Below, in pieces: positions 8,472-33,692 of a DNA stretch of 54,624 bases (positions within the stretch are counted from its first letter, which is position 1; each line of letters starts with the position of its first letter). The stretch covers positions 1 to 54,624 of the forward strand of contig JAJYXM010000016.1 of the NCBI GenBank assembly GCA_021796435.1, in the 5' to 3' direction. A model generated the notes under the pieces. It did no database searches, was not told the origin of the DNA, and saw only the letters and a program-made list of their open reading frames with translations. A program made the translations under genes and the position numbers. This stretch comes from a bacterium. Lineage in GTDB: Bacteria; Patescibacteriota; Patescibacteriia; 2-12-FULL-60-25.

Positions 8472-8476
8472 AGAGT

Positions 8477-13367: not shown

Positions 13368-14390
13368 ATGGCTGGCTTGAGCAATAGATCAACGCTCCAC
13401 CGTCGTCTTACCGCTTTCGTCGATTGGATCGCTACGGAGACGGCGACCGAGGACCGCATCCGCACCCAGGCGGACGAGATCAGGAACCGGATCAAAGGCA
13501 AGGCGACGGACGATGGGTTGACCGTCCGTAGCATGCCGAACAGCGGCTCCTTCGCGAAACGCACCGGGCTGCGGCGCCACCTTCAGGGTGAGTCCTACGT
13601 CGAAGGCCAGGACGTCGACCTGCCGTTCGTGGTCTCGCCAAAGACCAAGGACGACGAGGCGGTCGACCGCTTGCTCGACAAGTTCCTAGCCTACGCGCAG
13701 GCAAGCTACCCCGACACGACCCGGACCAAGACCAAGAGTTCCGTGAGGCTGCGCTTCGTCGGCACGAAACTCTCGTACGACCTGGTCCCCATGCTCGCCA
13801 CGCCCGACCCCGAGGAGCAGATCCTGTTTCGCGCCGACGGCGAACGACGACGCACCTCTGTGCAGAAGCATATCTCGTTCGTCAAGTCGCGTACGCAGGC
13901 GAGCAACGTGGTCGCGGGACGGGTGAAGTTCAACGAGTGCGTGCGGCTCATGAAGTGGTGGCGCGAGTTCCGAGTCGGAAGCGCCGGCTCCCTCACCAAG
14001 ATGCCCACCTTCGTGGTCGACCTTCTGTCCGCAAGGGCTTTCGATGATCAATCTGTGACCGACAGCTACGCCGAGACCCTGGCTCGCTGGTTCGGTTCTT
14101 TGGCAAACATGGTGCAGAAGCGGACGCCGGTCTACTTCACCGATTTCGTCCGCCCGAGCGTCTTGCCGCGGGCTACGTGGGTGGTGCTTGATCCCGTGAA
14201 TCCTGAGAACAACGCTGTGTCTGCGTGGAGCGGCCTCATGGTTGACGAACTGGCTGAATGGCTCGGTGAGGGGCGTGACGCTTTGCACCGCGCCATCGCA
14301 GCTGATCTGCGCGGTGACGATCGGGCGTCTCTCGATGCGCTTGTCGCGCTTTTCGGATCCCCATTCCGGCATCACTGTGGAGACAAGTAA
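13368..14390 (+). CDS. CD-NTase of type III CBASS (clade C-like)
   Basis: The protein has 340 residues, with GAGGAGG four bases before the ATG. Nucleotidyltransferase motif: GS at 60-61 (PNSGSFAKRTGL), D82 and D84 (GQDVDLPFVV) and a third Asp at 138 (SYDLVPML), all present. It is short, without the AGS-C tail of the first synthase, and belongs to a different CD-NTase subgroup. It is followed at three bases by a HORMA gene and then a TRIP13-like ATPase, the hallmark of type III CBASS. There, HORMA bound to peptide activates the synthase and TRIP13 disassembles the complex. The product, in known clade C systems often a cyclic trinucleotide, would activate the minus-strand Cap5. Confidence 0.9.
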   Translation: MAGLSNRSTLHRRLTAFVDWIATETATEDRIRTQADEIRNRIKGKATDDGLTVRSMPNSGSFAKRTGLRRHLQGESYVEGQDVDLPFVVSPKTKDDEAVDRLLDKFLAYAQASYPDTTRTKTKSSVRLRFVGTKLSYDLVPMLATPDPEEQILFRADGERRRTSVQKHISFVKSRTQASNVVAGRVKFNECVRLMKWWREFRVGSAGSLTKMPTFVVDLLSARAFDDQSVTDSYAETLARWFGSLANMVQKRTPVYFTDFVRPSVLPRATWVVLDPVNPENNAVSAWSGLMVDELAEWLGEGRDALHRAIAADLRGDDRASLDALVALFGSPFRHHCGDK

Positions 14391-14393
14391 CAG

Positions 14394-14894
14394 ATGTACT
14401 ACACGGCCACCGCCACGGCATCCCGCACCAACACCTACACCGAGGCCCGCGTCCGCTACGTCATGGACAAGGTGCTCGAGGACTTTATGACCATCGCTGT
14501 TCGCGGATTCGCCCCCTTCGAACGAATGACAGCATGGTACGAGGACGTGCGGGCCGTTTTGCTTCTCGAAGCAGCTGAGTTCTTTGAGATTCAGCTCACA
14601 CCGCCGAGGGGCAAGAAAGTTGGCATCCGCTACACGGTAATCGACGACGGGTCGATCGCAGAGGACGAAGCGTCGGGTGGCCAGAACCTATACGGGTTAC
14701 CAAATGGGACCACGGTGGCGATCGTCATCCACGCCCGTGACGACGCAAAGAAGCGCGACGCCGCCCTCGCCTACTTGAAGAGGCGGGGGTGGTCTATGAA
14801 TGGGACGGTGCTTCAGGATGAAGGCGCGCGCGACCGCGGATACTCCAAAGACGGATATGGTGTGCAGCGAGCGCGGATCGGGAATTGGCAATGA
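14394..14894 (+). CDS. cap7: Bacterial HORMA-domain protein (Cap7-like)
   Basis: The protein has 166 residues, starting three bases after the CD-NTase stop and overlapping the TRIP13-like start (ATGA). The pattern matches bacterial HORMA proteins: a Thr/Ala-rich N-terminus that leads into the long helix (YTEARVRYVMDKVLEDFMT), an E(F/I)QLTPPRGKK strand region, and a C-terminal YSKDGYGVQRARIG segment where the safety belt would close. Bacterial HORMA proteins bind a closure peptide and then the CD-NTase to switch it on. Recognition rests on order and partial sequence likeness; a profile search would settle it. Confidence 0.8.
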   Translation: MYYTATATASRTNTYTEARVRYVMDKVLEDFMTIAVRGFAPFERMTAWYEDVRAVLLLEAAEFFEIQLTPPRGKKVGIRYTVIDDGSIAEDEASGGQNLYGLPNGTTVAIVIHARDDAKKRDAALAYLKRRGWSMNGTVLQDEGARDRGYSKDGYGVQRARIGNWQ

Positions 14895-15790
14895 GTGAAC
14901 TTCAACTTTTCGAAACAAGGCATCCGAACAAAGACGCCGGCAAGGCGTTCCAGCGGCTCGTGGGCTTGGACGCGCACAAGACAAGGTTGGTGGACGAGCT
15001 CGCGTTGCTCCTCGACCCTTCCCGCCTCGATGCATGGCGAGAGAAGCACCACCCGAAGGGGCTACCCATCCTCGATGTACTTGCGCAAGGCGCGCCCGTC
15101 GTCCTGCTCTCCGGCGAGGTGGGCTGCGGCAAGACGGCGCTAGCGACGTGTGTCGCGACACCCGTTGCAGAAGCCCTCGACGCGCGAGTTGCATGCTTCG
15201 AGACACCATCGAACATTCGAGGGACCGGACTTGTGGGCGACCTCTCGAACCGAATCACCACAGCATTCTCGATGGCGAAATCCAAGCTCGGCGGAAACGG
15301 CACCAAGTACGGTCTCCTCGTCATCGACGAGGCGGACGACTTAGCGACGAGCCGCGCGCAGATGCAGGCCCACCATGAGGATCGCGCTGGGTTGAACGTT
15401 CTAGTGAAGCAAGTGGATCTGCTCGCTCGCGAGTGCCCCGGGCTCGCGACCATCCTCATTACCAACCGTCTCTCTGTGCTCGACCCCGCGATTCGACGGC
15501 GCGTCGCGCTTCATCTCGTGTTCGAACGGCCCGACGACGACGCGCGTCGCGAGATCTTCACCGAGATGCTCCGTGGAACCGGCGCGAAAGACAGGGACAT
15601 CGACGACTTGGTGCAGCAAAGCAAGCGGGAGGACACGCCGTACTCGGCCTCCGACCTGATCCACAGGGTAGGACGGCTAGCGCTCAATCGTGCAAGGATC
15701 GCAAACTGCAGGTTCGGTGCGGACCATGTTCGTGACGCACTGGGTGAGGTGAATCCCACGCCGCTTGTGGAATGTTCCTCCTGTCAATGA
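14891..15790 (+). CDS. cap6: TRIP13/Pch2-like AAA+ ATPase (Cap6-like)
   Basis: The protein has 299 residues. Walker A is GEVGCGKT (residues 75-82), Walker B LLVIDEADD (~142-150), sensor 1 ILITNR, and an arginine-finger region DPAIRRRVALHL follows. A C-terminal helical lid (YSASDLIHRVGRLALN) completes a AAA+ module. Overlap with the HORMA gene shows it is the TRIP13 partner. In type III CBASS this ATPase remodels HORMA, dissociates it from the CD-NTase and limits signalling. Its 3' end converges with the minus-strand Lon-like gene 26 bp away. Confidence 0.88.
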   Translation: MSELQLFETRHPNKDAGKAFQRLVGLDAHKTRLVDELALLLDPSRLDAWREKHHPKGLPILDVLAQGAPVVLLSGEVGCGKTALATCVATPVAEALDARVACFETPSNIRGTGLVGDLSNRITTAFSMAKSKLGGNGTKYGLLVIDEADDLATSRAQMQAHHEDRAGLNVLVKQVDLLARECPGLATILITNRLSVLDPAIRRRVALHLVFERPDDDARREIFTEMLRGTGAKDRDIDDLVQQSKREDTPYSASDLIHRVGRLALNRARIANCRFGADHVRDALGEVNPTPLVECSSCQ

Positions 15791-15816: not shown

Positions 15817-17592
15817 CTACGTTGAGCGGCCTTGCTTACCTTGACGCCTTGGATGACGGCTAGACCGGTTTTCCCACGCTGGTCCAAACAGCACCAGCCC
15901 GGCGAGCCGAGCGCGACCAGCATCAGCCGGTGTCGTTTCACCAAGATCCAATCCTCGTCGTTCCGAAAGTGCCTTCGCCCGTCGAAACGTGTCAAATGTC
16001 CTTGGCAGGTCCCGCCAACGCCACAACAGAACGACGGCGACCGCCACTGCGCCGATCGTTGCCACAAGGCTGTACGCGATGTCGTCTACAAGAAGCCGCA
16101 TTGTCGGTCGTGACCAGAACCTGGCGGCATCTTCCACGGACGGTGGCAGCGTGGCGTGGGGGAAACAGGTCCGCACGACGAACCATACCCCGACCACGGC
16201 AACCGGCGCCCACAAGCAGAAGACCGTACCCGAAACTACAACGCGGCGGTTGCGGAGCGCTCGAACGACCAGCATGACACCTTTGAAGGCGGATTCGTTC
16301 GACATTCCGACAACACCCATAACAGCCGGAAGAAGAACGAGCGGATCCACGTGTCCTGGCGATCTGGGCAGGAACAGGTCCGTACCCGCAAAAAACGCGG
16401 CGAATGCAAGCCACGCTGCGCAACGCAAAGCGACTGTGTGTTTCTCTGCGACCGCGAAGTTTGATGGGAATGGGGATGGAAGAAGGTCTGGGATTCGTCC
16501 TTGCTTCGATGGAAGGCGCGTAATCATCCACGCCCCTAGAAGGCCCGCCGCCCAAGCTCCTTTGGGCACAACAACACACAGCAATGACGCGGAAAACACG
16601 ACAACATGCTCCCACGACATCCGCGGCACGGCGTCGCGCATCCAAGCATAAGAGTTATTGAGCGTGTCAATAGGACACGCCACGACTGCCAAGAACACCA
16701 GGGGCACCGCAAGCACCGCGAAGGCTGACACCAGCCAGAACCAGTGAATTGATGAGATTTCTAGTCTCCATCCAATGACGACAGCCAGAAGTAGCCCAAA
16801 ACTAAGTCCGAGCGCCGGCGCCGCAGCAATGTGCTGCCGGATGATCCTAAGCCAGGCTTTGCGGGCAAGGTCTTCTGGGTGCTGCTCCGATCGATCGGCA
16901 AACAAAACCCGGCAGAGGGTGGTAAGTCCCTCGCGCGCCTCTGGAATGACCACAACTAACTTCGCATGTAGCTTGGCCGACGAACGAAGTAGCTCAGACA
17001 GCTCCTCGAATGAGGACTGTCCACATATTGTGACGATCACTTCGCTAGCCACGTCTCTGTTGCGCCCACCCGTAATCGCTGCCCAGTTGGCAGCTGGGAC
17101 GAAGAAGACGTGTCCGTCTTCCACCGCATGCGGGTGGAACGGCAGCCCGCAGAATGCTCGCAGCTTTGCAAGAAAGGCGTCGTCATCAACATGCCTCAGC
17201 GTCCCATCCTCCCTAACGTGGCCGGTCGCCCAGTAGGTGATGCGATGACTCGCTTCAGCTGTTAGCGGAAGACAAGCAGCGAGTGAGTTTAGAAAATACG
17301 CCAGCGTGTACGAGTTCTGGTCGAACTTTGACTCTGTCGCATCAAGTGGCAGAAGCAAGCCGACAACGTCCGGTCGGTGCACGGCAATCGCGCGCAGTAC
17401 GTTTCGAACTCCTTCAGCGTGGCGGCCCTTTTCCCTTTCACCGAGCGCCACTTCGCAGACCGTGAATCTGGCGACTCCACCGTGAGGCGGGATGCCACCG
17501 GGTTCCGCGGGACCAACGAGCGGGGCACAGAACGGCAACTGGACTCGCGGTAAGGCGGATACGAGCGAGGGAGATGAGTCGTCCTTAGGCAT
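15817..17592 (-). CDS. Lon-protease-like domain fused to multi-pass membrane region (candidate defence effector)
   Basis: The protein has 591 residues. Residues ~30-230 follow the layout of the Lon (S16) proteolytic fold. They show ALGEREKGRHAEGVRNVLRA, then FDQNSYTLAYFLNSLAACL (Ser in the position of the catalytic Ser of DGPSAG). Next come ITYWATGHVREDGTLRHVDDDAFLAKLRAF (aligning with TGEI...GG(L/I)KEK, with a Lys) and VFFVPAANW. From ~255 on there are about eight hydrophobic helices and a basic C-terminus. Neither dyad residue can be confirmed by eye. It overlaps the preceding gene by 8 bp, forming a three-gene minus-strand operon. A membrane-acting protease or signal-gated effector is inference. 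Confidence 0.6.
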   Translation of the reverse strand: MPKDDSSPSLVSALPRVQLPFCAPLVGPAEPGGIPPHGGVARFTVCEVALGEREKGRHAEGVRNVLRAIAVHRPDVVGLLLPLDATESKFDQNSYTLAYFLNSLAACLPLTAEASHRITYWATGHVREDGTLRHVDDDAFLAKLRAFCGLPFHPHAVEDGHVFFVPAANWAAITGGRNRDVASEVIVTICGQSSFEELSELLRSSAKLHAKLVVVIPEAREGLTTLCRVLFADRSEQHPEDLARKAWLRIIRQHIAAAPALGLSFGLLLAVVIGWRLEISSIHWFWLVSAFAVLAVPLVFLAVVACPIDTLNNSYAWMRDAVPRMSWEHVVVFSASLLCVVVPKGAWAAGLLGAWMITRLPSKQGRIPDLLPSPFPSNFAVAEKHTVALRCAAWLAFAAFFAGTDLFLPRSPGHVDPLVLLPAVMGVVGMSNESAFKGVMLVVRALRNRRVVVSGTVFCLWAPVAVVGVWFVVRTCFPHATLPPSVEDAARFWSRPTMRLLVDDIAYSLVATIGAVAVAVVLLWRWRDLPRTFDTFRRAKALSERRGLDLGETTPADAGRARLAGLVLFGPAWENRSSRHPRRQGKQGRST

Positions 17593-18154
17593 CGCTCCGG
17601 ACGCGCAGTGAAATCGCTTTACGTGGTGGTCTCAACGCAAACGTCTTCGACACCCGGTCCCTCATGTCTTGAACCGAATAGTCCAGGACGGCAACCAATT
17701 GATCCCCGTTGAAAATCTCTACCTGGATTGAGCCCACGTCGTCCGCGTCGTCCGGCGTGCTTATAACCAACAACGCAGGATCGTCCAAGGAGAACTCGAC
17801 GGTCAAACAGCGAATGTGGCCTAGCGGTGTTTCGAACTGAAGTGTGTGGGCGCTTGTGCTAGCGGCCATGAGCGATGGCTCATACAACAACACCGCATCC
17901 GCAAGTGAGGCAAGTACCCGGGTGAGCGGCTTCCACCATGGCATCGGCTCACCCGAAGTTTTCGGCTCGAGTGAGCAAGGCTGTGGTGATTCGACAGGGT
18001 GGTGCGCAAACCGCTTGTCGCTCCCGTTCAAGGGGTCGACGGCGACCTGCGGCGTATCTTCAGCGTAATCCGTCGGGGGAGGCGGCAGATACCGGCCGAG
18101 CGCTCGAATGATGCGCGACTGCAGCGCGACGTACTCACGTTCGCTATCGGTCAT
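17585..18154 (-). CDS. Unknown middle gene of the MazF-fold/Lon-like operon
   Basis: The protein has 189 residues. The start overlaps the stop of the MazF-like gene by 11 bp and its stop overlaps the Lon-like start by 8 bp, so all three are translated together. The N-terminus is helical, then a Pro-rich linker (LPPPPTDY), a helical patch (PLTRVLASLADAVLL) and a beta-rich C-terminal half (FETPLGHIRCLTVEFS, then SIQVEIFNGDQLVAVLDYSV). No known motif. It may couple the sensor-like and membrane components. I do not recognise the family. Confidence 0.7.
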   Translation of the reverse strand: MTDSEREYVALQSRIIRALGRYLPPPPTDYAEDTPQVAVDPLNGSDKRFAHHPVESPQPCSLEPKTSGEPMPWWKPLTRVLASLADAVLLYEPSLMAASTSAHTLQFETPLGHIRCLTVEFSLDDPALLVISTPDDADDVGSIQVEIFNGDQLVAVLDYSVQDMRDRVSKTFALRPPRKAISLRVRSDA

Positions 18155-19043
18155 TGGTTCTCACTCCGAGGTGCTGGCGGACCTTGCGCAGCGTCCAATC
18201 TCGCACTTTGTCGTCCACCATCCAGCTCTTGACATCGCCGTCGTCGAAGTAGACGCGGCGCGGGCTTTCGATAACTTTGTCGCCCTCGCGACGGCAAGGA
18301 ACGTTCCGGTAGTCGACCGTCAGAACAAGCTGTGTCAGTATCGAAAAGTCAATCGAACTGTCTGGGGCGGACACGGTCGGATAGTCGGGCCTGAGTTCTC
18401 GGAGGCGTGGGCAGTCCACCAACGGAACGACGGAAACAAGCGCCAGGACATGGGGATTGAGCTCACGCTCGTGGGCTGCCGTTGCGACAATAACGCATGG
18501 GAGTCGCGTAGACCGATACGGCCAACGCACTCCGGCAAGTTCAGCAAGCTCCGTCTGCAGTGCCAGGAGGTCGGACTCGCGCATGTCGTCTGTCGCCAGA
18601 AGTTCGATCCACACGACGTTGCCTACTGCCAAGCGTGGTTCGGACACGGGTGGCGTCGATGGCACGGAAAGCCGCCGAGCGAGCTTGGCAAGCACTCTCG
18701 GAAGCGCAGTTCGCTCGGAAGTCGCTTCGAGAGTAGCTACGTTTCGCGATGTTTGGTCTGAATCCAATGCAAACGTCCAGAGTTGCTGGGCATCGACGAA
18801 GTGCGGACCGCTGTCGAATCGGTCACTCGGACAGACGGTTATGCCGTCGACGAGGTAGTCTCGATGGCTGCGCCCACCGGCATGCGTGATCTCGACGCAA
18901 ACGAAGATGTCGTGCTCGTTTATCTCGAAGTCGCTGAGAACGAGCCATGGACGCGGCCGTTTGCCAGGTATCTTGCCTTCCTCGTGCCCGCGGAGGTCCG
19001 CACGCGGCAGCGGGTAACGGACGTCAAGTCGGTTGATTTCCAT
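18144..19043 (-). CDS. Tandem MazF/PemK-fold protein
   Basis: The protein has 299 residues from the ATG at 19043, with AGGGA seven bases upstream; an ATG at 19049 would give two more residues. Residues ~1-100 resemble the CcdB/PemK/MazF beta-barrel: GHEEGKIPGKRPRPWLVLSD corresponds to the GHEQ...GRRPALVLS motif, and DAQQLWTF to the cdQ..t motif. Residues ~155-275 repeat it as VGNVVWIELL...PCVIVATA...SILTQLVLTVDYRN. In toxin families this fold cuts RNA or binds DNA gyrase. Two diverged copies in one chain, with no antitoxin next door, suggest a binding or processing module rather than a classic toxin. Confidence 0.6.
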   Translation of the reverse strand: MEINRLDVRYPLPRADLRGHEEGKIPGKRPRPWLVLSDFEINEHDIFVCVEITHAGGRSHRDYLVDGITVCPSDRFDSGPHFVDAQQLWTFALDSDQTSRNVATLEATSERTALPRVLAKLARRLSVPSTPPVSEPRLAVGNVVWIELLATDDMRESDLLALQTELAELAGVRWPYRSTRLPCVIVATAAHERELNPHVLALVSVVPLVDCPRLRELRPDYPTVSAPDSSIDFSILTQLVLTVDYRNVPCRREGDKVIESPRRVYFDDGDVKSWMVDDKVRDWTLRKVRQHLGVRTNDR

Positions 19044-19076
19044 GACCATTTCCCTGTCGGCAGACGAACAAAAATC

Positions 19077-19103
19077 CCCCGTGCGGTTCGGAACCACACG
19101 GGG
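19077..19103 (-). terminator. Strong terminator downstream of the small gene at 19,133
   Basis: Near-perfect hairpin: CCCCGTG/CACGGGG (19077-19083 with 19097-19103) plus GGTTC/GAACC (19085-19089 with 19091-19095). On the minus strand it runs into ATTTTT (19070-19075). It isolates the sigma-factor unit from the MazF-like operon. Confidence 0.85.
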
Positions 19104-19132
19104 TAGTCTTGAGTTGCATGATAGGTGGCGAT

Positions 19133-19555
19133 CTACTGGGGTGCCAAGTGCTGGGTCGCTCGGCAGAGAGTTGACGCCGCAACGGCGTTCACGCGAGCGT
19201 CTTCGAACGCTTCGGGAGCAGTGCGTGCACGTTCCCAGTTCGCGGTCGTCATGTCGCGCCATCGCCACGGGTAGACCTGCAGCTCGCGCCTGAACGTATC
19301 CGCTTGATCCGCCTTTTGTTCCGCCGGGAGTTCAACCGGCCAACCGTCAGCCCCATAGAACTCGGTCTTCGGAAGCGAAGCGCGGATCAGGCGTCCTGCG
19401 CCGCGAAAGCTGTCCGCCCGAAACGTAATCGCCATCACCGCCCCCTGGGGCCAGCTCTCGCCATCCGCCGCCTCATCGCGGAAGATGGGCTGCGGATCCT
19501 CGGAGCTGCCGAGGTAGATGCTTCTATCGATGCGTGCAATGTGCGTCGTGGCCAT
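19133..19555 (-). CDS. Small unknown protein nested at the 3' end of the sigma-factor frame
   Basis: The protein has 140 residues from the ATG at 19555 (MATTHIARIDRS), with AAGGGGA a few bases upstream, its own TTGACA-N17-TATCGT promoter at 19719-19747 and a strong terminator after it. It has a beta-rich start, a middle rich in acidic and aromatic residues (EFYGADGWPVELPAEQ), then YPWRWRDMTTANWER. No known family. It shares its reading frame with the upstream sigma-like coding region, so it may be made both alone and as a fusion. I favour a separate protein. Confidence 0.6.
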   Translation of the reverse strand: MATTHIARIDRSIYLGSSEDPQPIFRDEAADGESWPQGAVMAITFRADSFRGAGRLIRASLPKTEFYGADGWPVELPAEQKADQADTFRRELQVYPWRWRDMTTANWERARTAPEAFEDARVNAVAASTLCRATQHLAPQ

Positions 19556-20512
19556 GGTTGTCCCCTTGGCCGGATGTTCCGAGACCCTTCTCCGCGGCGA
19601 CACCAGTGTCGACATAGAGAAGGTACCGCACGTCCACCCGGCTCGCAATCGGGACCCTGCATCGGCGCACCTATGGAGGGGCCAGCTTGCAGGCCGGGGA
19701 CGAATATTAGAACTAAACACGATAACATAGAAATACAAGATTGTCAATAGTGCACTAAGAAACATGTCAACCAAGCCACAAAGCAGCCGTCGGGGCGAGT
19801 TCGGACCCGCCCGAGCCTCACCAACGACAGCTCGGACCGCCTCGAGCGCCCGGTGAAGCAACACCCTCGTGTTCCCCGCGGTTGTGCCTAGTTCTCGAGC
19901 GATCTCCGCGTGCTCCCGGTCCTCAAGCCAGCTCTGGAGGACAGCGAACTCCCTCGGCTTGAGCACCGAGGGGAGCGCGTCCCAGATCCGAACGACGATT
20001 TCGCGCGTTTCAGCCAGCCAGGCGGGGTCAGGCTCGTGTGATGTGTGGCCTTGGGACGTCAATCGCTCCTCTCCTTCATCATCAGCACGATCCGCCAGGG
20101 GTGGATCGCCTGCGGCGAAGAGCAGAACCGATCGCTCCCGCGCTACTTCGCGGGCAATCCTGGGTGCTGTAGTTCGGAGCCAGCCTTCGACAACAGGCGC
20201 GGCCGCGCGGATCCGCCCCTGCTGGATCGCCGAGAAAAACGCGAGCGCTACTTCCTGTAGTGCATCCTCGACGAGGTCGTCAGAGGTCGCAAGCGCGCGA
20301 CGTACCGTACTGGCCCCTGCGAGAAGGTGGGCGGACTCGCCGTTGGCTCCGGCGAAGCGGAGAGCATCGTGCAGCGGCGCCCTGGCAAGAGCGCCGCGGA
20401 TGAGCCACTGCGCGTAGCGTTCGTAGCGCTGCCACACGGCGTCGAACTCGCCCGGCGAGAGGGCGCGATCATGTTCCGCTGACGGCGTTTCAGTAATGGA
20501 ACAGCCTGCCAT
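19133..20512 (-). CDS. ECF-like sigma factor, open frame continuing through the next small gene
   Basis: The first ~255 residues look like an ECF sigma factor. Region 2 is SDDLVEDALQEVALAFFSAI (~75-95) with a WLRTTAPRIAREVARER helix. Region 4 is ALPSVLKPREFAVLQSWLED followed by EIARELGTTAGNTRVLLHRALE (~180-230). A hydrophobic stretch (residues ~250-275, LVDMFLSALLTILYFYVIVFS) and then low-complexity sequence lead in frame into MATTHIARID at 19555. The hydrophobic stretch coincides with an AT-rich promoter, so the fusion may be accidental, with the true product ending by readthrough into spacer. A membrane-anchored sigma-fusion is the alternative. It is divergent from the E2/JAB/E1 operon and may control it. 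Confidence 0.65.
   Translation of the reverse strand: MAGCSITETPSAEHDRALSPGEFDAVWQRYERYAQWLIRGALARAPLHDALRFAGANGESAHLLAGASTVRRALATSDDLVEDALQEVALAFFSAIQQGRIRAAAPVVEGWLRTTAPRIAREVARERSVLLFAAGDPPLADRADDEGEERLTSQGHTSHEPDPAWLAETREIVVRIWDALPSVLKPREFAVLQSWLEDREHAEIARELGTTAGNTRVLLHRALEAVRAVVGEARAGPNSPRRLLCGLVDMFLSALLTILYFYVIVFSSNIRPRPASWPLHRCADAGSRLRAGWTCGTFSMSTLVSPRRRVSEHPAKGTTMATTHIARIDRSIYLGSSEDPQPIFRDEAADGESWPQGAVMAITFRADSFRGAGRLIRASLPKTEFYGADGWPVELPAEQKADQADTFRRELQVYPWRWRDMTTANWERARTAPEAFEDARVNAVAASTLCRATQHLAPQ
19719..19747 (-). promoter_or_regulatory. Sigma70-type promoter for the small gene at 19,555
   Basis: The minus strand reads TTGACA (19742-19747), 17 bases, TATCGT (19719-19724) inside an AT-rich patch unlike the GC-rich surroundings. 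This patch lies within the continuous sigma-factor frame. Confidence 0.6.
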
Positions 20513-20530: not shown

Positions 20531-20737
20531 GTGGACACGGGCCGTTTGGCGCTAGGGGTGCCGAAGGTGATCGGTTTGGCTGGTCTTGTTCCGCTACCGG
20601 TCCATGTGACCGAAGCCGGCCACGTTACGGCAAGCGTAACAGAAAACGGTCTGACTGGTACCGAAAAGTGGGTGGCAGTCGCACATCATATCCCGATGGC
20701 TCCCGGCAAACGCCAGAGGCCGTCCGACATCCTGTAA
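20531..20737 (+). CDS. Small beta-rich ORF heading the E2-JAB-E1 operon (possible ubiquitin-like protein)
   Basis: The protein has 68 residues from GTG. Codon use is reasonable, and a beta-strand-rich middle is visible (VPLPVHVTEAGHVTASVTENG, then KWVAVAHHI). It ends SDIL, without the Gly-Gly tail of classical ubiquitin-like modifiers. Position suggests it could be the conjugated protein of the system, but sequence alone does not show this, and the frame could be spurious. Only 18 bp separate it from the divergent sigma gene. Confidence 0.35.
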   Translation: MDTGRLALGVPKVIGLAGLVPLPVHVTEAGHVTASVTENGLTGTEKWVAVAHHIPMAPGKRQRPSDIL

Positions 20738-20767
20738 CGACCCCACTCGTCGCCGCATGGAGCCGCC

Positions 20768-21151
20768 ATGACCTGGTATCGGAGCGACCCGCGACGCCTC
20801 AGGGAAGAGGAGCAGTGCATGCGACACGGCGCGCAGGCGCGGCTTCTCCGTGACGGTGACCGCCTCTTCTGGATCGAGCAAATCGTATCCACATTTGGAC
20901 AGCCGTACGTGTTGCGCATCGACTACCCCGATCGCTTCCCCTGGGAGCCGCCGCAAGCATCCATCCTCTCACCGGACGTCTCCGGCGCTCCGCATAGGTT
21001 CACCAATGGGACCTTGTGCTTGTTCAACAATCCATCGGTCGGGTGCGGCCCCCAAACCACAGCCCTCCTCGTGCGGAACCGGGCGATCGCATGGTTCCTC
21101 GCGTACGAAGTCTGGCGGCGCACGGGGCAGTGGGCGGCACCTCAGCACTGA
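20768..21151 (+). CDS. E2 (ubiquitin-conjugating)-like protein
   Basis: The protein has 127 residues. Its layout is that of prokaryotic E2-fold proteins: a strand region (LRIDYPDRFPWEPPQASIL, where YP..FP..PP is the E2 signature) followed by HRFTNGTLCLFN with the candidate catalytic Cys in the NG-x-LCL context, then a C-terminal helical part (AIAWFLAYEVWRRTGQW). It would accept a modifier from the E1 three genes downstream (22545) and pass it to a target. It is a stand-alone E2, not fused to E1 as in Cap2 of type II CBASS. Confidence 0.85.
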   Translation: MTWYRSDPRRLREEEQCMRHGAQARLLRDGDRLFWIEQIVSTFGQPYVLRIDYPDRFPWEPPQASILSPDVSGAPHRFTNGTLCLFNNPSVGCGPQTTALLVRNRAIAWFLAYEVWRRTGQWAAPQH

Positions 21152-21161
21152 GAAGCAAGCC

Positions 21162-21434
21162 GTGACGGCACCTACGCTGACGTGTCCAACCACGCCCGAG
21201 TGCTACTGCGACTGCTGGTCCCGGCTCATGGCGGCCGCACCCGCGGCTGGCACAGCACTGACTCTCCTCCTGCTCCTCGCAGCCCTATTTGGATACTTCA
21301 TCGGGAGACCGAGCCGACGACAGCGCCAAGTCATTCGTAACGTTCAGCCCCCTCGTCCCATGGGACGACAAGCAGGCCGACACGAACAGCGCCGACCGCA
21401 ATGCATGAACGAATACGGCGAGATCATCCGGTAG
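21162..21434 (+). CDS. Small single-pass membrane protein in the ubiquitin-like operon
   Basis: The protein has 90 residues from a GTG with GAGAAG upstream, ten bases after the E2 stop. A Cys-rich N-terminal patch (CPTTPECYCDCW) is followed by one transmembrane helix (GTALTLLLLLAALFGYF, ~35-52) and a very basic tail (RPSRRQRQ). It sits inside the E2-JAB gap, so it is probably co-transcribed. It may anchor the conjugation machinery or the ATPase to the membrane. No family recognised. Confidence 0.6.
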   Translation: MTAPTLTCPTTPECYCDCWSRLMAAAPAAGTALTLLLLLAALFGYFIGRPSRRQRQVIRNVQPPRPMGRQAGRHEQRRPQCMNEYGEIIR

Positions 21435-21474
21435 TGGGCCAAGCCCCCGACCACTCGCCAGGAAGGACACAACA

Positions 21475-22542
21475 ATGGCTCGCGATCTGAACCGCCTCAT
21501 GGACGATATGCGCAACGCACGCGAAGTCTTCATCACGGAAGACGGCAACGTCGAAGACGCCGAAGAAGCGCGGAGCAATGAGGCGAACGAGCAACACGGA
21601 GAGCGGCCGCCGCAGCGGCGCACCAAGCTCAAGCCCGAGATCTTCGGCACAGCGGAGCCGGAAATCCGCATCGCCACGAGCATTTTTGACGACTTCGCTG
21701 CTGAGGCGTCGCGCTCCAAGGGTGAGACGGGCGGCATCCTCATCGGGCCCGACGAGCACACGATCACCGGGCTGATCCCGTCGGGACCAGCCGCGAAGTC
21801 AACCCCATGGAGCTGGGAGCTCGACGCGGAATACCTGCAGCCTCAGCTCGACAAGGCGGAGCGACGCGGGTCGAGATTCGTTGGTATCTGGCACGTCCAC
21901 CCGGACGGATATCGCGAGCTATCCTCGACCGATCTTCGGGCGACGCGTTCGATCCTTGGCGATCCCGAGTGGGGGGTATCCCAGCTCATCTTGCCGCTGT
22001 CCGTGCGAAGCGGTAGCAACCTCGAAACGGCGATCTTCGTGGCCTCCGGCGCCGGGCCCACCATCCGCCACGCGCGGACCATCTTCGTCTCCAAGCATGA
22101 GGCGCGACTGGACAAGGGCACAACCAGCCCCTGGCTCGCGACGGGCAGCTTCGCGGAGACACCGTACGGACAGCTCCGCCTCGCCCAAGATCGTGCTGCG
22201 CTTGCTGCCCAGGGGTGGAAGGTCGGGAAGCTCTGCGCCCTGACCGAGGGGCTGGTGCTCGATGTCGCTCGATCTCACGTCGAGCTCTCACTTGTCCTGC
22301 CGAGGGAATACCCACTCGCTCCGCCTGACGTTGTCCTCCGCTCAGGAGACGGATTGCGCGAGGTTTCCCACGAACACCTTGCGGAGACTGCGCGCTGGTC
22401 AAGCCTACGGTCGCTCGCCGAGGTCGTGGAGCAAGCTGCCCGAGCGATACGAAGGCGCCCGCCCCTCCTGCGCCCTCGTCGAGGCGGGCTCTTGCACTCG
22501 CTGTCAGCCGTTCGCCGAATCCTGCAACCATCGAGGTTCTAG
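21475..22542 (+). CDS. JAMM/JAB isopeptidase fused to an RWD/E2-like domain
   Basis: The protein has 355 residues with AGGAAGG before the ATG. The N-terminal ~60 residues are charged and flexible. Residues ~65-215 are a JAB domain with the full JAMM set: E84 (GETGGILIG), H140 and H142 (WHVHPDG) and D153 (ELSSTD). Residues ~225-330 look like an RWD/E2 fold (HVELSLVLPREYPLAPPDVVL) with no Cys at the E2 active position. JAB peptidases trim or remove ubiquitin-like modifiers. Here it lies between the E2 and E1 genes and could process the modifier precursor or reverse conjugation. The RWD part may recruit the E1 or E2. Confidence 0.85.
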   Translation: MARDLNRLMDDMRNAREVFITEDGNVEDAEEARSNEANEQHGERPPQRRTKLKPEIFGTAEPEIRIATSIFDDFAAEASRSKGETGGILIGPDEHTITGLIPSGPAAKSTPWSWELDAEYLQPQLDKAERRGSRFVGIWHVHPDGYRELSSTDLRATRSILGDPEWGVSQLILPLSVRSGSNLETAIFVASGAGPTIRHARTIFVSKHEARLDKGTTSPWLATGSFAETPYGQLRLAQDRAALAAQGWKVGKLCALTEGLVLDVARSHVELSLVLPREYPLAPPDVVLRSGDGLREVSHEHLAETARWSSLRSLAEVVEQAARAIRRRPPLLRPRRGGLLHSLSAVRRILQPSRF

Positions 22543-22544
22543 AG

Positions 22545-23387
22545 ATGGACACCACCGACTTCCATGCCCGACACGAAGGCCTGCTCGATCCTGCACTCCT
22601 CGGCAAGAAGCGCGTGCTCATTGTGGGATGCGGATCTGTCGGCAGCTATCTCGCCCTCTTTCTCGCGCGATCCGGCGTCGGAACGCTTGCGCTCCGCGAC
22701 CACGATCACATCTCAGTCACAAACCTCTGTCGCACGACGTACACCGAGCGCGACGTCGGTCGACCGAAGGTCGATGCGCTCAAGGAGCAGCTCCGCGGCG
22801 TGCGGGGGGATCTCGAGGTTGACGCTCGACCAGTCGATCTGCGGGATGTAGACGACGACGAGGTTCGCACCTGGATCGACGAATCGGACCTGCTGGTCGC
22901 CGTTACCGACCATCCACCGACCCAGGCGCGACTTGCCGCCCTCTCGTACCACCATGTCCCCGCAGTCTTCGCTGGCGTGTACGAGCGCGGCACGGGCGGC
23001 GAGGTCATCTGGACCGCTCCAGAAGAGACGCCTTGCTACTCGTGCGTACTTGGCGCGATACGCGATGCCGACGCGCCGAGTCGAGGGCAGAGCGACTACG
23101 GCATCGCAACAGGCCAGCTCGCTTCTGAGCCAGCGCTCGGGATCGACATCCTGCACGTGACCGTCTGCGCAGCGAAGATCGCGCTCGCGCTCCTCCTCCG
23201 TGGATCAGACGCGCCAGCAGCACAGGTCCTGGATCCGAGCCGGTCCGTGCTCTTCGTCGGCAACTCGACGGGGTGGATTTGGCGCGAACCGTTCGAGACT
23301 GTGTGGGCGCGGGCAACCCGACGCGAACGATGCGTCTGCCGTCTTCTGCCGGGGGGATCCACCGCCGACCTCATCACCGAGCCATGA
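22545..23387 (+). CDS. E1-like (ThiF/MoeB-fold) adenylyltransferase
   Basis: The protein has 280 residues and begins two bases after the JAB stop. Nucleotide-binding GCGSVG at 28-33, DHDHISVTNLCR (the D..x..NL.R element of E1 enzymes), DVGRPKVDALKEQL and a CxxC pair at 164-167 (PCYSC) are all present. ThiF-family enzymes adenylate the C-terminus of a ubiquitin-like protein and pass it to a Cys. It overlaps the next small membrane gene by ATGA. With a separate E2 and JAB this forms a three-enzyme conjugation and deconjugation set. Confidence 0.88.
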   Translation: MDTTDFHARHEGLLDPALLGKKRVLIVGCGSVGSYLALFLARSGVGTLALRDHDHISVTNLCRTTYTERDVGRPKVDALKEQLRGVRGDLEVDARPVDLRDVDDDEVRTWIDESDLLVAVTDHPPTQARLAALSYHHVPAVFAGVYERGTGGEVIWTAPEETPCYSCVLGAIRDADAPSRGQSDYGIATGQLASEPALGIDILHVTVCAAKIALALLLRGSDAPAAQVLDPSRSVLFVGNSTGWIWREPFETVWARATRRERCVCRLLPGGSTADLITEP

Positions 23388-23584
23388 CGAACATGATGAT
23401 TCTGGGCGTTCTCGAGCTACCGGTCTTCATTGGTCTGTACCTGCTCATCGGGTACATCGTGTACCGCTGGCATTGGCCGCGCGGGTTCGTGCAGCTCGAG
23501 CAAGACGCGCATCGAGAGCGGCTGCTTCGAACCGGTCGTCGCCGCATACTACCGCTGCCCCGTGGGCGCGGAGGTGAGCGGTGA
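23384..23584 (+). CDS. Small membrane protein coupled to the DNA translocase
   Basis: The protein has 66 residues with ATGA overlap on the E1 stop and GTGA overlap with the ATPase start. One transmembrane helix (~5-27, ILGVLELPVFIGLYLLIGYIV) is followed by a basic tail. The ATPase itself lacks membrane helices, so this may be its separated membrane anchor, as in type IV coupling proteins whose N-terminus is transmembrane. Too short for a family call. Confidence 0.65.
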   Translation: MTNMMILGVLELPVFIGLYLLIGYIVYRWHWPRGFVQLEQDAHRERLLRTGRRRILPLPRGRGGER

Positions 23585-25341
23585 GCACAGGACTCCGTGT
23601 CGCTCTCGGGATCCGCAAGCTGCTGCGGAGCGACCGTGTCGACGCGCTCCAGGAGGTTGACGCGGTGAGAGCTGAGATCGACGAGGCATCCCGGACGCTC
23701 CGCAACGCGCCGGCCGCCGAGATGCAACGTCTGTCCGAAGGCCGGTCCTCTGTCATTTGCCTGGGCACGACCACGGACGCTTCCGGCGAACCCCTCGTGC
23801 TTAGCCTGCGCGAGGCGGAGATCCGGAGCGGCGGCCATTGGCTCGTGACGGGCGCGACTGGCGCGGGCAAGAGCTTCGAGGCGCTCGGTGTGATCATGCA
23901 GCTCCTCTCGCGCCAGCCGAGGGGCCTGGTCGTCATCGACATGAAGGGCGAGCTGGCTGGGCTGCTTCGCAAGACCGCACTTCCTTCGCTTGTCGCATCT
24001 TTGCCCGAGCCTCGCGCCCGTATGCTCATCCGTCGCATTGCGGTCATCGCGCCTTTCGATGAGAGCGCGACGCCGCCCTTCCAAGTTCTCGCTCGCGACT
24101 CGAGCATCCCGATCGAGCTGCAAGCGAGTGAAGTCGCCTCATCGTTTGGCAACACGATCGGTCGCGACCTCGGCGTGCTCCAGAGCACGGTTCTGAAGTA
24201 CGCGATCATCCTTGCGATTGACGTGGGGTTGTCGCTTCCCGACGTCCCGGAGCTTCTCCAGAGCGACGCGCTCTTGAGTGGCGCGGTTGCACGAACCTCG
24301 CTCCCGGAAGTGAGGGCGTACTTCGCCAACAGGTTCCCGCGTGAGCGTGCGGCTTCCGTCGCGTCGCTTCTCTCGAGAATCGACTCGCTTCTCATGCACC
24401 CGACGTTGAAGCGCATGCTGTCGACCGATCGCATGATCCGGTTCGACCGTCTGCTCGAGCAGGCGATCACCGTCATCGACCTCGGCGGAGCGCCGGCCGG
24501 CATGAGCGAGGTCAGCCGGTTCTTCGGACAGCTCCTCTTCCAGAAGATTGTGCGGGCGATCTTCGCGCGCAAGGTGCGCGAGGACTCGCCGCCCGTGACC
24601 GTCATCGCCGACGAGTTCCAGGCGATGCTTGTCCCTGACATTGCCTCCGACTTCGAGCGCGTGCTCACCCTTGCAAGGAGTCAGCGAGTGTTCCTGTGGT
24701 GTCTCTTTCAGCAAGCCGCGCAGGTCGAGGCGGTGTCGCCGACGCTTCTCCAGATCCTCCGGGCCAACACGAACTACCAGGCGACGTTTCGAGCGAACCT
24801 CCAAGACGCGCGCCTCATGTCCCACATCTTGCCCGTGACGGGCACGGTGCAGCGCGAGCGCCAGGGCTTCCCAGACCCGAGGACGCCGGCGCAGACGCTC
24901 ACCGCGGACGAGGAACGACGTATCCTCGTCGAGCAGGTACCGTCTCTGCCGGACAGGTCGTTCTGGTTCTGGAACCGGCGTCGCCAGTACCCGGCGCAGC
25001 TGATGAGGTCGCCGACAATTCGACTCGATCGCCTTGAACAACGCGCGGAAAGCTTGGGTCCGGTACGCGACATCGTGAGCCGCGGCGTGCTCGCGCTGAG
25101 CCGCGAAGAACTTGCTAACGCAGAGCGAAGGCGGGCTGAGCTTCGCGCGGCTCTGTTGCAGGGCGATGCCCCCGCGCGCGGAGCAGCGGAAGGACCGGGT
25201 GCCCGGATGAGCGAGGCCGCAACGCGCATGACAGATGAAACGCTTTCCGTGGACACGCCATGGGATGGACCAGCACCCGAGGATGGACCGGAGCGCCCGC
25301 CGAAGGCGGGCCGACGGCGCCGCGGGACCCACCTTGGATGA
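23581..25341 (+). CDS. VirD4/TraD-like DNA-translocase ATPase
   Basis: The protein has 586 residues from GTG. Walker A is GATGAGKS (91-98). VVIDMKGELAG (~117-127) matches the post-Walker strand of type IV coupling proteins. Walker B is VIADEFQAML (341-350), with TNYQATFR near 400. An Asp/Glu/Arg-rich, low-complexity C-terminus follows. The family pumps DNA during conjugation or delivers DNA-protein complexes to a channel. It is translationally coupled to the preceding membrane peptide and encoded with E1, E2 and JAB. That linkage suggests conjugation-type DNA transfer regulated by, or directing, protein modification. No relaxase or VirB4-type gene was recognised nearby. Confidence 0.88.
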   Translation: MSTGLRVALGIRKLLRSDRVDALQEVDAVRAEIDEASRTLRNAPAAEMQRLSEGRSSVICLGTTTDASGEPLVLSLREAEIRSGGHWLVTGATGAGKSFEALGVIMQLLSRQPRGLVVIDMKGELAGLLRKTALPSLVASLPEPRARMLIRRIAVIAPFDESATPPFQVLARDSSIPIELQASEVASSFGNTIGRDLGVLQSTVLKYAIILAIDVGLSLPDVPELLQSDALLSGAVARTSLPEVRAYFANRFPRERAASVASLLSRIDSLLMHPTLKRMLSTDRMIRFDRLLEQAITVIDLGGAPAGMSEVSRFFGQLLFQKIVRAIFARKVREDSPPVTVIADEFQAMLVPDIASDFERVLTLARSQRVFLWCLFQQAAQVEAVSPTLLQILRANTNYQATFRANLQDARLMSHILPVTGTVQRERQGFPDPRTPAQTLTADEERRILVEQVPSLPDRSFWFWNRRRQYPAQLMRSPTIRLDRLEQRAESLGPVRDIVSRGVLALSREELANAERRRAELRAALLQGDAPARGAAEGPGARMSEAATRMTDETLSVDTPWDGPAPEDGPERPPKAGRRRRGTHLG

Positions 25342-25348
25342 GGGCAAC

Positions 25349-25690
25349 ATGCTCCGGCTTCCCTTCTCGCTTCACGCCGTCCTCCGCCTTGTGAAGACGG
25401 TCGCGTTCGTCGTGCTCGTGGCGCCTTGGGTCGTCCTTGCCCTGGCTCGTGCCGCGTTCGTGAAGGTCGACAAGTTCGTGCGCATGTTGCTGTCCGTGCG
25501 GAACGCGCTCGACGATCACGCAGTGTGTCCGGCTGGTCATCGCGCCGGGTTGCATGGCGTTTTCGAGTGCCGCAGCTGCGGTGCGCTCTTCGCGGGGTAC
25601 GCCTTCGCCGAGTGTCCGGTCTGCCGCGAGAGCTGTGGCTTCATCCAGTGCGAGCACTGTGGACTCGCGATTCGCAATCCGCTGCTGTGA
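25349..25690 (+). CDS. Membrane-anchored zinc-ribbon protein
   Basis: The protein has 113 residues, with AGGG upstream, seven bases after the ATPase stop. One or two transmembrane helices (~5-35, LRLVKTVAFVVLVAPWVVLAL) precede a Cys-rich tail with CPAGH, CRSCG, CPVCRESCG and CEHCG pairs, which is a zinc-ribbon-like pattern. It closes the operon. A zinc-ribbon next to E1/E2 can be a substrate-binding or E3-like adaptor. That is speculative. Confidence 0.65.
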   Translation: MLRLPFSLHAVLRLVKTVAFVVLVAPWVVLALARAAFVKVDKFVRMLLSVRNALDDHAVCPAGHRAGLHGVFECRSCGALFAGYAFAECPVCRESCGFIQCEHCGLAIRNPLL

Positions 25691-26206: not shown

Positions 26207-26328
26207 TCGTCGCGTAACGGCCTCGGGGTTCGCCCCATGGAAAGGATGTGGGTGACGTGCTCCCCGAACCCTTCGGCACGTCGGGTGTGCGGTCCGTGGG
26301 CAGGCGCTTTCGGGCTCGTTCCGAAGCT

Positions 26329-26628
26329 ATGCCAACAACACCAAACATCCCGGGATCAGAACTCATCCCGCCCAAGCCGAAACCTCCGTGGCGACAGGTC
26401 GTGCGCGAGGCGCTCGCCCGACTTGGCGGACAGGCCAGCCTCCAGGCCTTGTACGTCGAGATCGACAACGAGTACCAAGCCACGAACCGCTGGCGCAACT
26501 GGAAGGCCAAGGTGAGGCAGCAGGTGCAGCTCGATCCAGAGATCGAACACGTGGCGTACGGCGTCTGGCGGCTCAAGTCTGCTGGGCTCCCTACCGACGC
26601 AAGCGATTCGGCGGCGCCCTCGGGCTAA
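26329..26628 (+). CDS. Winged-helix DNA-binding protein
   Basis: The protein has 99 residues from the ATG at 26329 (MPTTPNIPGSE); the frame is open farther upstream, but this start leaves room for a promoter. A Pro-rich N-terminus is followed by a winged-helix-like segment: WRQVVREALARLGGQASLQALY, YVEIDNEY, WRNWKAKVRQQVQ and VAYGVWRL. This pattern (helix, LGG, helix, then W-R...K-R) resembles small HARE/HB1-type or restriction-linked winged helices. Probable regulator or DNA-binding adaptor for neighbouring genes. Confidence 0.55.
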   Translation: MPTTPNIPGSELIPPKPKPPWRQVVREALARLGGQASLQALYVEIDNEYQATNRWRNWKAKVRQQVQLDPEIEHVAYGVWRLKSAGLPTDASDSAAPSG

Positions 26629-30181: not shown

Positions 30182-30793
30182 ATGAGCTTCCCCGGTGTAC
30201 ACGGTCTGCAGGTCGTCGCCATTAAGCCCAGCTGGAACCGGATCGTGCCGAGCGTCCTCAACGAGCCGTGCGAACCAGTGGACCTAGGCGATGAGCGAGT
30301 CCTCGGCATCCTTGAGGACGTCATCTTCGAGATGTTTCGCACGATGTACGGCACGTTCGGCGTCGGCCTGGCGGCCCCGCAGGTTGGGATCCGCTGGCAG
30401 CTCGCCGTCATCGACACGGGCAACAAGGAGGACCCACGCCAGGGAAGGATCGTTCTCGTGAACCCGCGGGTCACCGCTGGCGCGAACACGAAGATGGTAC
30501 CCGACAAGGAGACGTGCTTGAGCGTGCCGTATCACGAAGGATCGGTTCCGAGGTTCGAGCGGATACATGTCGAGCAGGTCACGCTCGCGGGCGAGGCCGA
30601 GAGATTCGAGGCCGAGGGGTTCTTCGCTCGCGTCATCCAGCATGAGACGGACCACCTGTTCGGGAAGACATACCTGGACCGCCTCGAGGACGGCGCTCCG
30701 CCCGACTGCGACACGCCAGCCGTCGTCGCAAGGCGCGCAGCCAAGGTGGTCGAGTCGCTGAACGTGCGGGGGCTGCTTCGCCGAACGCCATGA
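30182..30793 (+). CDS. def: Accessory peptide deformylase
   Basis: The protein has 203 residues. Motif I is GVGLAAPQ (60-67), motif II ETCLS (110-114) and motif III QHETDH (153-158), giving the metal ligands C112, H154 and H158 and the catalytic E155. Motif II has Thr where most enzymes have Gly (EGCLS). Such changes occur in less typical deformylases and raise doubt about full activity. The enzyme removes the formyl group from new proteins. An element-borne copy could resist inhibitors or act on phage proteins. It stands alone, with no Fmt gene beside it. Confidence 0.85.
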   Translation: MSFPGVHGLQVVAIKPSWNRIVPSVLNEPCEPVDLGDERVLGILEDVIFEMFRTMYGTFGVGLAAPQVGIRWQLAVIDTGNKEDPRQGRIVLVNPRVTAGANTKMVPDKETCLSVPYHEGSVPRFERIHVEQVTLAGEAERFEAEGFFARVIQHETDHLFGKTYLDRLEDGAPPDCDTPAVVARRAAKVVESLNVRGLLRRTP

Positions 30794-31876: not shown

Positions 31877-32176
31877 CAGCCAGGCGCGGGTTCCAGCCAT
31901 TGCTTTCGCTGCGCTAGCCAATCCAGAAGCGAACCGATCGGGAACGCTGGCCGAGCCGACGTTCCAAAGCCGATGACGGTCCGTGCACACGCGCGGGGAT
32001 CTCGAGATTCTCGTCGGAGGCGCGAGAAGCACGAGGTACACGGGCAAAGGCTGGATCCCATCCGCGACGGGCGAATGCCCGTTCGGCGTCTCCCGATCGG
32101 GACGCTTCGTTTCGTGTCCCCCATCGGAGGGGCGAACGCGCAGATATCGACAACCAATCCCTCGAGGTGCGAACCG

Positions 32177-32506
32177 ATGTTGCGCCACGACCGTCGTGCT
32201 GCGTCTGCGGCAGCCACTCAGGATCAGCAAACGAGACGGGAAACTGCGCCTGCGTCGGAGAGCCGGCCGAACGCCATCGACGTGTCGCGCGACGTCGAAG
32301 AGGACGAGTCTCCCGCCATCCTCACCGTCGACGAACTCGCCGCGCTACTGCGCGTCGAGCGCAAGACCGTCTACGCCGCCATCATGCGCGGCGACATCCC
32401 TGGCGTCCGACGAGTCGGCCGATCCATCCGGATCTCGCGCGACGCGGTGCTAGACTGGCTGCGCACAGCCCATGTGCGCGCCCCGCACCCACGGAGGATC
32501 CGATGA
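32177..32506 (+). CDS. Excisionase-like (MerR/HTH_17) DNA-binding protein
   Basis: The protein has 109 residues from the ATG at 32177. A flexible, acidic N-terminus is followed by an excisionase-type helix-turn-helix: ILTVDELAALLRVERKTVYAAIMRGDIPGVRRVG, ending RISRDAVLDWL. Its stop overlaps the integrase start (ATGA), the usual xis-int coupling. It likely binds the attachment-site arms and directs excision. Confidence 0.8.
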   Translation: MLRHDRRAASAAATQDQQTRRETAPASESRPNAIDVSRDVEEDESPAILTVDELAALLRVERKTVYAAIMRGDIPGVRRVGRSIRISRDAVLDWLRTAHVRAPHPRRIR

Positions 32507-33667: not shown

Positions 33668-33692
33668 GGTGGAGGCGCCGGGAATCGAACCC
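33668..33692 (-). other. Attachment-site fragment: 3' end of tmRNA-like gene
   Basis: On the minus strand: GGGTTCGATTCCC then GGCGCCTCCACC, the T-arm and acceptor end of tmRNA, with U70 (alanine identity). The stem does not pair upstream of the T-loop and no tag peptide or 5' end is seen to the right, so it is a partial copy. Its position beside the integrase marks it as the att core. Bases 33693-34037 after it hold no supportable gene. Confidence 0.75.

Follow-up and report, generated by a model that had tools for sequence, protein, structure and literature searches.

The window analysed here is the first 54.6 kb (54,624 nucleotides) of a 1.52-Mb contig (G000) in a 1.6-Mb genome of Patescibacteria. 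It holds a tight operon in which enzymes of ubiquitin-like protein conjugation are encoded together with a coupling-protein-like DNA translocase ATPase, here called the pump. The genes run in one direction in the order E2, TM1, JAMM, E1, TM2, ATPase and zinc protein, with a divergent sigma factor in front, and the spacings from E2 to the zinc protein are, in order, 10, 40, 2, -4, -4 and +7 bp. An initial annotation of this DNA had described this gene set, linked by overlaps or gaps of at most 40 bp behind a divergent sigma factor; all of it is present and the domain matches are confirmed. That annotation began its interval at 20531, where the enzyme operon stands but the first open reading frame (20531-20737) is doubtful as a gene. 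We compare the operon with loci in two public Patescibacteria assemblies, G001 (same genus, JAVHLR010000001.1) and G005 (same family, JALHOH010000001.1), with L058 (JAJXTK010000133.1, an 11.7-kb contig of 1.4x coverage binned as Myxococcales), and with G705, the fifth member of the pump family, which turned up when 381 genomes of the class were scanned with a profile. Loci L059, L007 and L006 are from G001, L113 from G005 and L112 from G002 (same genus). The operon and its upstream flank read as follows.

19133 to 20512, minus strand: sigma-70-like open reading frame (Sigma70_r4 2.5e-6), of which the first ~245 codons are the sigma part
20531 to 20737, plus strand: orf1, 68 amino acids, doubtful, in the place where G001 has a putative ubiquitin-like protein (Ubl)
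20768 to 21151, plus strand: E2 of Cap2 type, 127 amino acids (PADLOC E2 8.9e-10), with the catalytic Cys in TNGTLCLF
21162 to 21434, plus strand: TM1, a small membrane protein with a hydrophobic segment in its translation
21475 to 22542, plus strand: JAMM isopeptidase, Cap3-like (Prok-JAB 1.5e-7, over cut-off; PADLOC JAB 1.9e-13)
22545 to 23387, plus strand: E1 of ThiF fold, 280 amino acids (PF00899 1.5e-32; PADLOC E1-E2 3.7e-34)
23384 to 23584, plus strand: TM2, a one-helix membrane protein, overlapping the ATPase gene by 4 nt, with a homologue in L058
23581 to 25341, plus strand: coupling-protein-like DNA translocase ATPase, by the TrwB_AAD_bind, T4SS-DNA_transf and TraG-D_C matches of its relatives
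25180 to 25338, plus strand: tail of the ATPase, predicted to be mostly disordered, whose last residues are ...RGTHLG; the proposed conjugated C-terminus
25349 to 25690, plus strand: membrane-anchored zinc protein with eight Cys/His, with an alternative TTG start at 25334

The conjugation enzymes resemble those of the type II cyclic-oligonucleotide-based anti-phage signalling system (CBASS). The E2 aligns with Cap2 E2 domains (hhalign E=6.8e-9, probability 95.8) from a common N-terminal W..P.RL..E onward, and its active site aligns with that of UBE2W. The JAMM enzyme has an intact catalytic Glu and HxHx7SxxD, with HVHPDGYRELSSTD intact, and ends in an E2/RWD-like domain lacking the Cys, whose matches are weak (Pfam 0.057, hhalign 0.006). 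The E1 carries the ThiF adenylation motifs and matches Cap2 E1s at 3.7e-25 over 226 columns, against 2.2e-19 over 147 columns for MoeB (hhalign). By these comparisons, both E1 and E2 belong with Cap2 of type II CBASS, divided into two genes; some actinobacterial CBASS loci also appear to have separate E2 and E1. The plasmid relatives of the E1 whose neighbourhoods were read are all in CBASS-operon-like settings, most with a JAB gene. The deep forks of the E1 tree gave no resolution. The kinship with type II CBASS, Bil-like and PRTRC-like systems first suggested for these enzymes is thus upheld on the CBASS side, where hhalign and PADLOC make them Cap2/Cap3-like, but without an accompanying Ubl having been found.

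A Pfam scan and a search for relatives detected no Ubl in or near the operon. Orf1 was considered as the Ubl and found no support: it has no Ubl features, no Pfam or PADLOC match, no relative and no Shine-Dalgarno sequence. A housekeeping modifier was likewise dismissed, with no ThiS or MoaD over cut-off in the genome. Nor is there a cGAS/DncV-like nucleotidyltransferase (CD-NTase) in the operon; the closest ones belong to CBASS operons of their own, at a distance of 6-15 kb.

A candidate partner is the pump. Its AlphaFold2 model has a predicted local distance difference test score (pLDDT) of 81.6, and Foldseek returns DptH/DndH, TrwB, VirB4 and HerA with similar strength. The fold alone does not separate it from DptH/HerA, and we call it a coupling protein because its context favours this. 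Pump relatives have their closest annotated context in a cluster on an actinobacterial plasmid, where PrgI, an ATP-binding protein, a type IV secretion system (T4SS) DNA transfer protein and Replic_Relax are encoded; Replic_Relax accompanies the ATPase in all 54 related loci. The VirD4-like ATPase proposed earlier therefore holds up, a coupling-protein-like identity being favoured by the TrwB/T4SS matches of relatives, the T4SS context and the fold. Among the window proteins scanned, none was recognised as a relaxase or a channel component; the element could use the chromosomal T4SS of Patescibacteria (PMC12102498) as its channel. The survey describing that system finds VirD4 homologues mostly apart from virB4 and does not mention ubiquitin (PMC12102498).

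Residues 534-586 of the pump are mostly modelled at pLDDT <50. The window and L058 diverge over this tail except in its final 12 residues, which are conserved (shuffle p 4e-5). The Leu and Gly codons of the tail differ between the two only by synonymous changes (CTT/CTG and GGA/GGG). The CD-NTases of two actinobacterial CBASS loci with split E2 and E1 end ...PQG. A terminal Gly was not found in the pumps of G001 (which has its own putative Ubl), G005 and G705, nor in 21 actinobacterial type IV coupling proteins (T4CPs).

The association of enzymes and pump recurs. In L058 the order is JAMM, E1, TM2, ATPase, zinc protein and Replic_Relax, and the main proteins are 43-64% identical to those of the window (JAMM 43%, E1 64%). 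Synonymous sites are saturated between the two loci, while nonsynonymous change is lower and the E1 is the most constrained; an order, apart from the E2, kept at such distance argues that the layout is not due to chance. L058 carries a Patescibacteria-type element despite its Myxococcales bin, which makes it either misbinned or a real cross-phylum transfer. In G001 the order is a minus-strand sigma gene, then TM, E1, candidate Ubl, E2, JAMM, an inserted gene, TM, ATPase, zinc protein and Replic_Relax, with an ATPase about 38% identical to that of the window. A sequence search had left G001 without an E1, a result overturned by a ThiF profile match. This E1 matches MoeB (4.5e-9) and not Cap2 E1s, whereas the window E1 matches Cap2 E1s, and the gene order within the module also differs. 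That two dissimilar conjugation systems occupy the same slot before homologous pumps argues for functional coupling, and is the strongest argument we have. Prok-JAB is over cut-off in 3 of the 41 family genomes, and in two of these it is no more than 2 kb from the pump. In the ATPase tree the five members form one clade (100/100), as ((window, L058), (G001, G005)) with G705. The viral contigs scanned have no relatives, and on plasmids the ATPase was matched only twice, weakly, both times in actinobacterial ones.

The G001 candidate Ubl lies between E1 and E2 (L059 6713-6973) and ends DGDVIAIVSPGIGA. Its Ubl fold is unconfirmed, as AlphaFold2 without an alignment reached only pLDDT 44.5 and a PDB search gave no match. 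The G001 E2 and TM2 (L007 739-1449, 2981-3526) carry short F-x-P-(I/L)-G-G motifs close to their ends, the E2 two of them, and the E2 itself ends GG. The motif is possibly one for docking or conjugation; beyond the three FTPIGG-like tails of these two proteins, none was found in other loci. G002 has a separate JAB-E1-Ubl-like cluster without a pump (L112 8472-10867), followed by a gene for a 997-amino-acid protein, in an order that is not CBASS-like; its Ubl has a weak ThiS match.

In type II CBASS, Cap2 joins the C-terminal Gly or Ala of the CD-NTase to lysines, and Cap3 reverses this conjugation (PMC10097602, PMC11153139). The Cap2-type E1 and E2, the lack of a detectable Ubl and the conserved tail ending in Gly, a last residue that pumps of loci with a candidate Ubl or without the enzymes do not have, lead us to propose the pump as the conjugated protein. 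With the Cap3 likeness of the JAMM enzyme, they move the likely mechanism from one in which a modifier regulates the pump to one in which the pump is the modifier. Our favoured explanation, offered tentatively, is that a captured CBASS II-like module conjugates the pump reversibly by its C-terminal Gly. A type II CBASS-like module, with split E2 and E1 and a Cap3-like JAMM enzyme, would have been captured by an integrative element, into its pump operon. The E1 would adenylate the C-terminal Gly of a partner that is not a Ubl, and the E2 would next hold this Gly as a thioester. The most likely partner would be the pump itself, with its disordered tail and conserved ...HLG end, which would be joined covalently to target lysines; candidate targets are TM2, Replic_Relax, and recipient or invader proteins. 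The JAMM enzyme would free the pump from its target again, and conjugation would thereby gate transfer of the element. We infer the tail as substrate, the identity of the target and the gating of transfer from sequence comparison. That the C-terminal Gly of a DNA-translocating ATPase is activated by Cap2-like E1 and E2 and joined reversibly to other proteins, with the ATPase in the role of "ubiquitin", is a possibility we put forward with some doubt.

A number of observations weigh against this proposal. The wing domain that joins E2 and E1 in Cap2 is missing here, and the MoeB/ThiF crossover-loop position of the E1 is not a Cys, whereas published Cap2s use an E1 Cys; transfer is thus predicted to go directly from the adenylate to the E2. 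Apart from two Cys pairs, Cys62 is the sole conserved Cys of the E1. The terminal-Gly pattern consists of two sister sequences only (window and L058). The Gly codon and stop (GGA/GGG TGA) partly overlap a possible Shine-Dalgarno sequence for the gene that follows. Conserved C-terminal motifs occur in actinobacterial T4CPs too, so such a tail may do no more than bind a partner. A protein outside the operon (26248-26628) ends in Gly, and in Ala in L058; Gly or Ala at both ends is not rare by chance. The enzymes are also not always there. G705 has TM, ATPase, zinc protein, Replic_Relax and integrase, and the ~15 kb upstream show neither a JAMM motif nor an E1. In ~50 distant coupling-protein loci, mostly actinobacterial, we found no JAMM motif and no match to our E1/JAB profiles, which are weak ones made from three divergent sequences. 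The module is therefore accessory to pumping and outside its core, and it recurs within a single element lineage. The initial annotation had proposed that modification controls or tags the transfer machinery. What stands of this is a module translationally coupled to the translocase gene of a mobile element, with dissimilar modules recurring (window and L058; G001); enzymes as part of the transfer core do not fit the G705 unit and the ~50 distant loci, which have T4CP and Replic_Relax without them. A count of ATPase units lacking E1, E2 and JAB, which it had named as a test, gives three with and one without, a tally that neither refutes nor upholds the proposal; the fifth unit, that of G005, is placed in neither group, as the two G005 contigs have no Prok-JAB or ThiF over cut-off but the contig ends just upstream of the pump.

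The G001 operon, with its candidate Ubl between E1 and E2, would be in keeping with ordinary Ubl conjugation, in which E1 and E2 place a small modifier that escaped recognition (orf1 or a protein encoded elsewhere) on the pump or relaxosome and the JAMM enzyme takes it off, so that transfer is controlled. We consider this unlikely for the window, given the failure to find a Ubl in or near the operon or a genomic ThiS or MoaD over cut-off, the absence of Ubl features in orf1, and the fact that Cap2-type E1 and E2 use no Ubl. The operon could instead be a new anti-phage or anti-plasmid defence, with a DptH/HerA-like translocase and conjugation that tags invader proteins or activates the translocase. 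The top Foldseek match of the ATPase is a DptH/DndH C-domain (TMt 0.69), HerA defence complexes match too, PADLOC reports mad8 at 1.6e-13, and the element holds two CBASS systems in addition to its CBASS-like E1, E2 and JAMM. We nevertheless think a defence role improbable, as the ATPase is constantly accompanied by Replic_Relax and, within the element lineage, by an integrase, and its relatives match TrwB domains and lie in T4SS clusters that include PrgI and a VirB4-like ATP-binding gene.

The two CD-NTases 6-15 kb upstream, one of which ends ...VVSVRG, raise the idea that the Cap2/Cap3-like enzymes act in trans on the element's own CBASS and that linkage to the pump is incidental. This is very unlikely: the ...VVSVRG end belongs to a folded AGS_C domain (residues 432-552 of 554) with no free tail, the other CD-NTase ends in Lys, and in L058, whose visible contig shows no CBASS, the enzymes keep with the pump. 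Finally, the module may be passenger cargo, a stand-alone conjugation or defence cassette that was inserted before the pump by chance. Such modules are mobile (PMC1779556), G705 has none, and the G002 cluster has no pump. The gene overlaps make this hard to accept, as do the position, orientation and divergent sigma gene that the window and G001 share despite dissimilar enzymes, and the small number of JAB genes in the family, two of three being <2 kb from the pump; we give this account a low probability.

Compared with known systems, the module shares with type II CBASS its E1/E2 sequence class, a JAMM protease, the lack of a Ubl and, in the pump as proposed substrate, a tail-bearing partner ending in Gly. 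It differs in having E2 and E1 as separate genes, no wing domain, an extra E2-like domain on the JAMM enzyme, a DNA translocase in place of a CD-NTase as putative partner, and no effector in the operon. The G001 operon is like Bil/Bub in having E1, putative Ubl, E2 and JAMM as separate genes and differs in its coupling to a DNA pump and integrase, a comparison by gene content only; the Ubl with C-terminal Gly typical of Bil/Bub was not found in the window operon. In the sections of Iyer et al. 2006 (PMC1779556) that describe types 6a-6e, JAB, E1 and E2 occur on mobile elements, and type 6e has inactive E2/RWD-like domains, but no type described in those sections includes a coupling-protein ATPase and Replic_Relax. 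The pump shares its ATPase fold and Replic_Relax partner with the TrwB/VirD4 coupling proteins of actinobacterial clusters. Unlike these, the Patescibacteria pump has no mating-channel genes seen adjacent, a separate membrane part (TM2), an added zinc protein and, in three of five cases, conjugation enzymes.

TM2 is likely a separately encoded membrane anchor of the pump. As with TM1 in the window, the G001 operon has a membrane-protein gene near its start, there in first place. The zinc protein has homologues in L058, G001, G005 and G705; it was considered as an E3, which is unlikely, as it is also beside the pump in the enzyme-less G705. The sigma factors of the window and G001 are 28% identical and in the same divergent position. 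The 3' half of the window sigma reading frame matches a separate G005 gene (L113 15028-15450) and probably represents another gene in that frame, there being no stop between the parts. Only 18 bp separate orf1 from the sigma start, and the 20531-20737 region may be a shared promoter of the sigma gene and the operon; a promoter and terminator scan gave no signal above shuffles. More minus-strand genes are beside the sigma gene in the window (15817-19268) and G001 (L006 13298-16585), possibly as a second conserved operon; both sets include a ~600-amino-acid protein, weakly Lon-like in G001, and that of the window a PemK-like one.

The surroundings of the operon contain the following features.

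7296 to 10021, plus strand: type I CBASS cargo, SAVED-HNH effector and CD-NTase with AGS_C
10040 to 11221, minus strand: second SAVED-HNH, between the two CBASS systems
13368 to 15790, plus strand: type III CBASS cargo, CD-NTase, HORMA and TRIP13-like AAA
26867 to 27733, plus strand: Replic_Relax protein (PF13814 4.3e-15)
31973 to 32506, plus strand: excisionase-like HTH_17 (6.9e-15), 80% identical in G001
32167 to 33645, plus strand: tyrosine integrase (PF00589 4.1e-32), 92% identical in G001, true start probably ~32500
33669 to 33692, plus strand: putative att half-site, tRNA/tmRNA 3' end (reverse strand), a weak tmRNA 3'-end match

The att half-site has an exact copy at the same place in G001, with one copy per assembly. 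The integrase, the att half-site and the context of the operon place it within an integrative element; the start of the contig probably lies inside this element, whose other end is not assembled. A pump of this family is 1-24 kb from a contig end in three assemblies (window, G001 and G005), as would happen if excision or the presence of several copies interrupted the assembly. The element also contains a peptide deformylase gene (30182-30793).

A 2025 review names Cap2 as the one E1 system known to activate a protein that lacks the ubiquitin fold, and predicts undiscovered others (PMC12355090). The locus is a concrete and cheaply testable candidate for that prediction. If the proposal is true, the pump would be only the second E1 substrate known to lack a ubiquitin fold, and the first DNA motor in that role, and conjugation enzymes derived from immunity would control the DNA motor of a mobile element, with two dissimilar sets of such enzymes in one lineage of elements in Patescibacteria.

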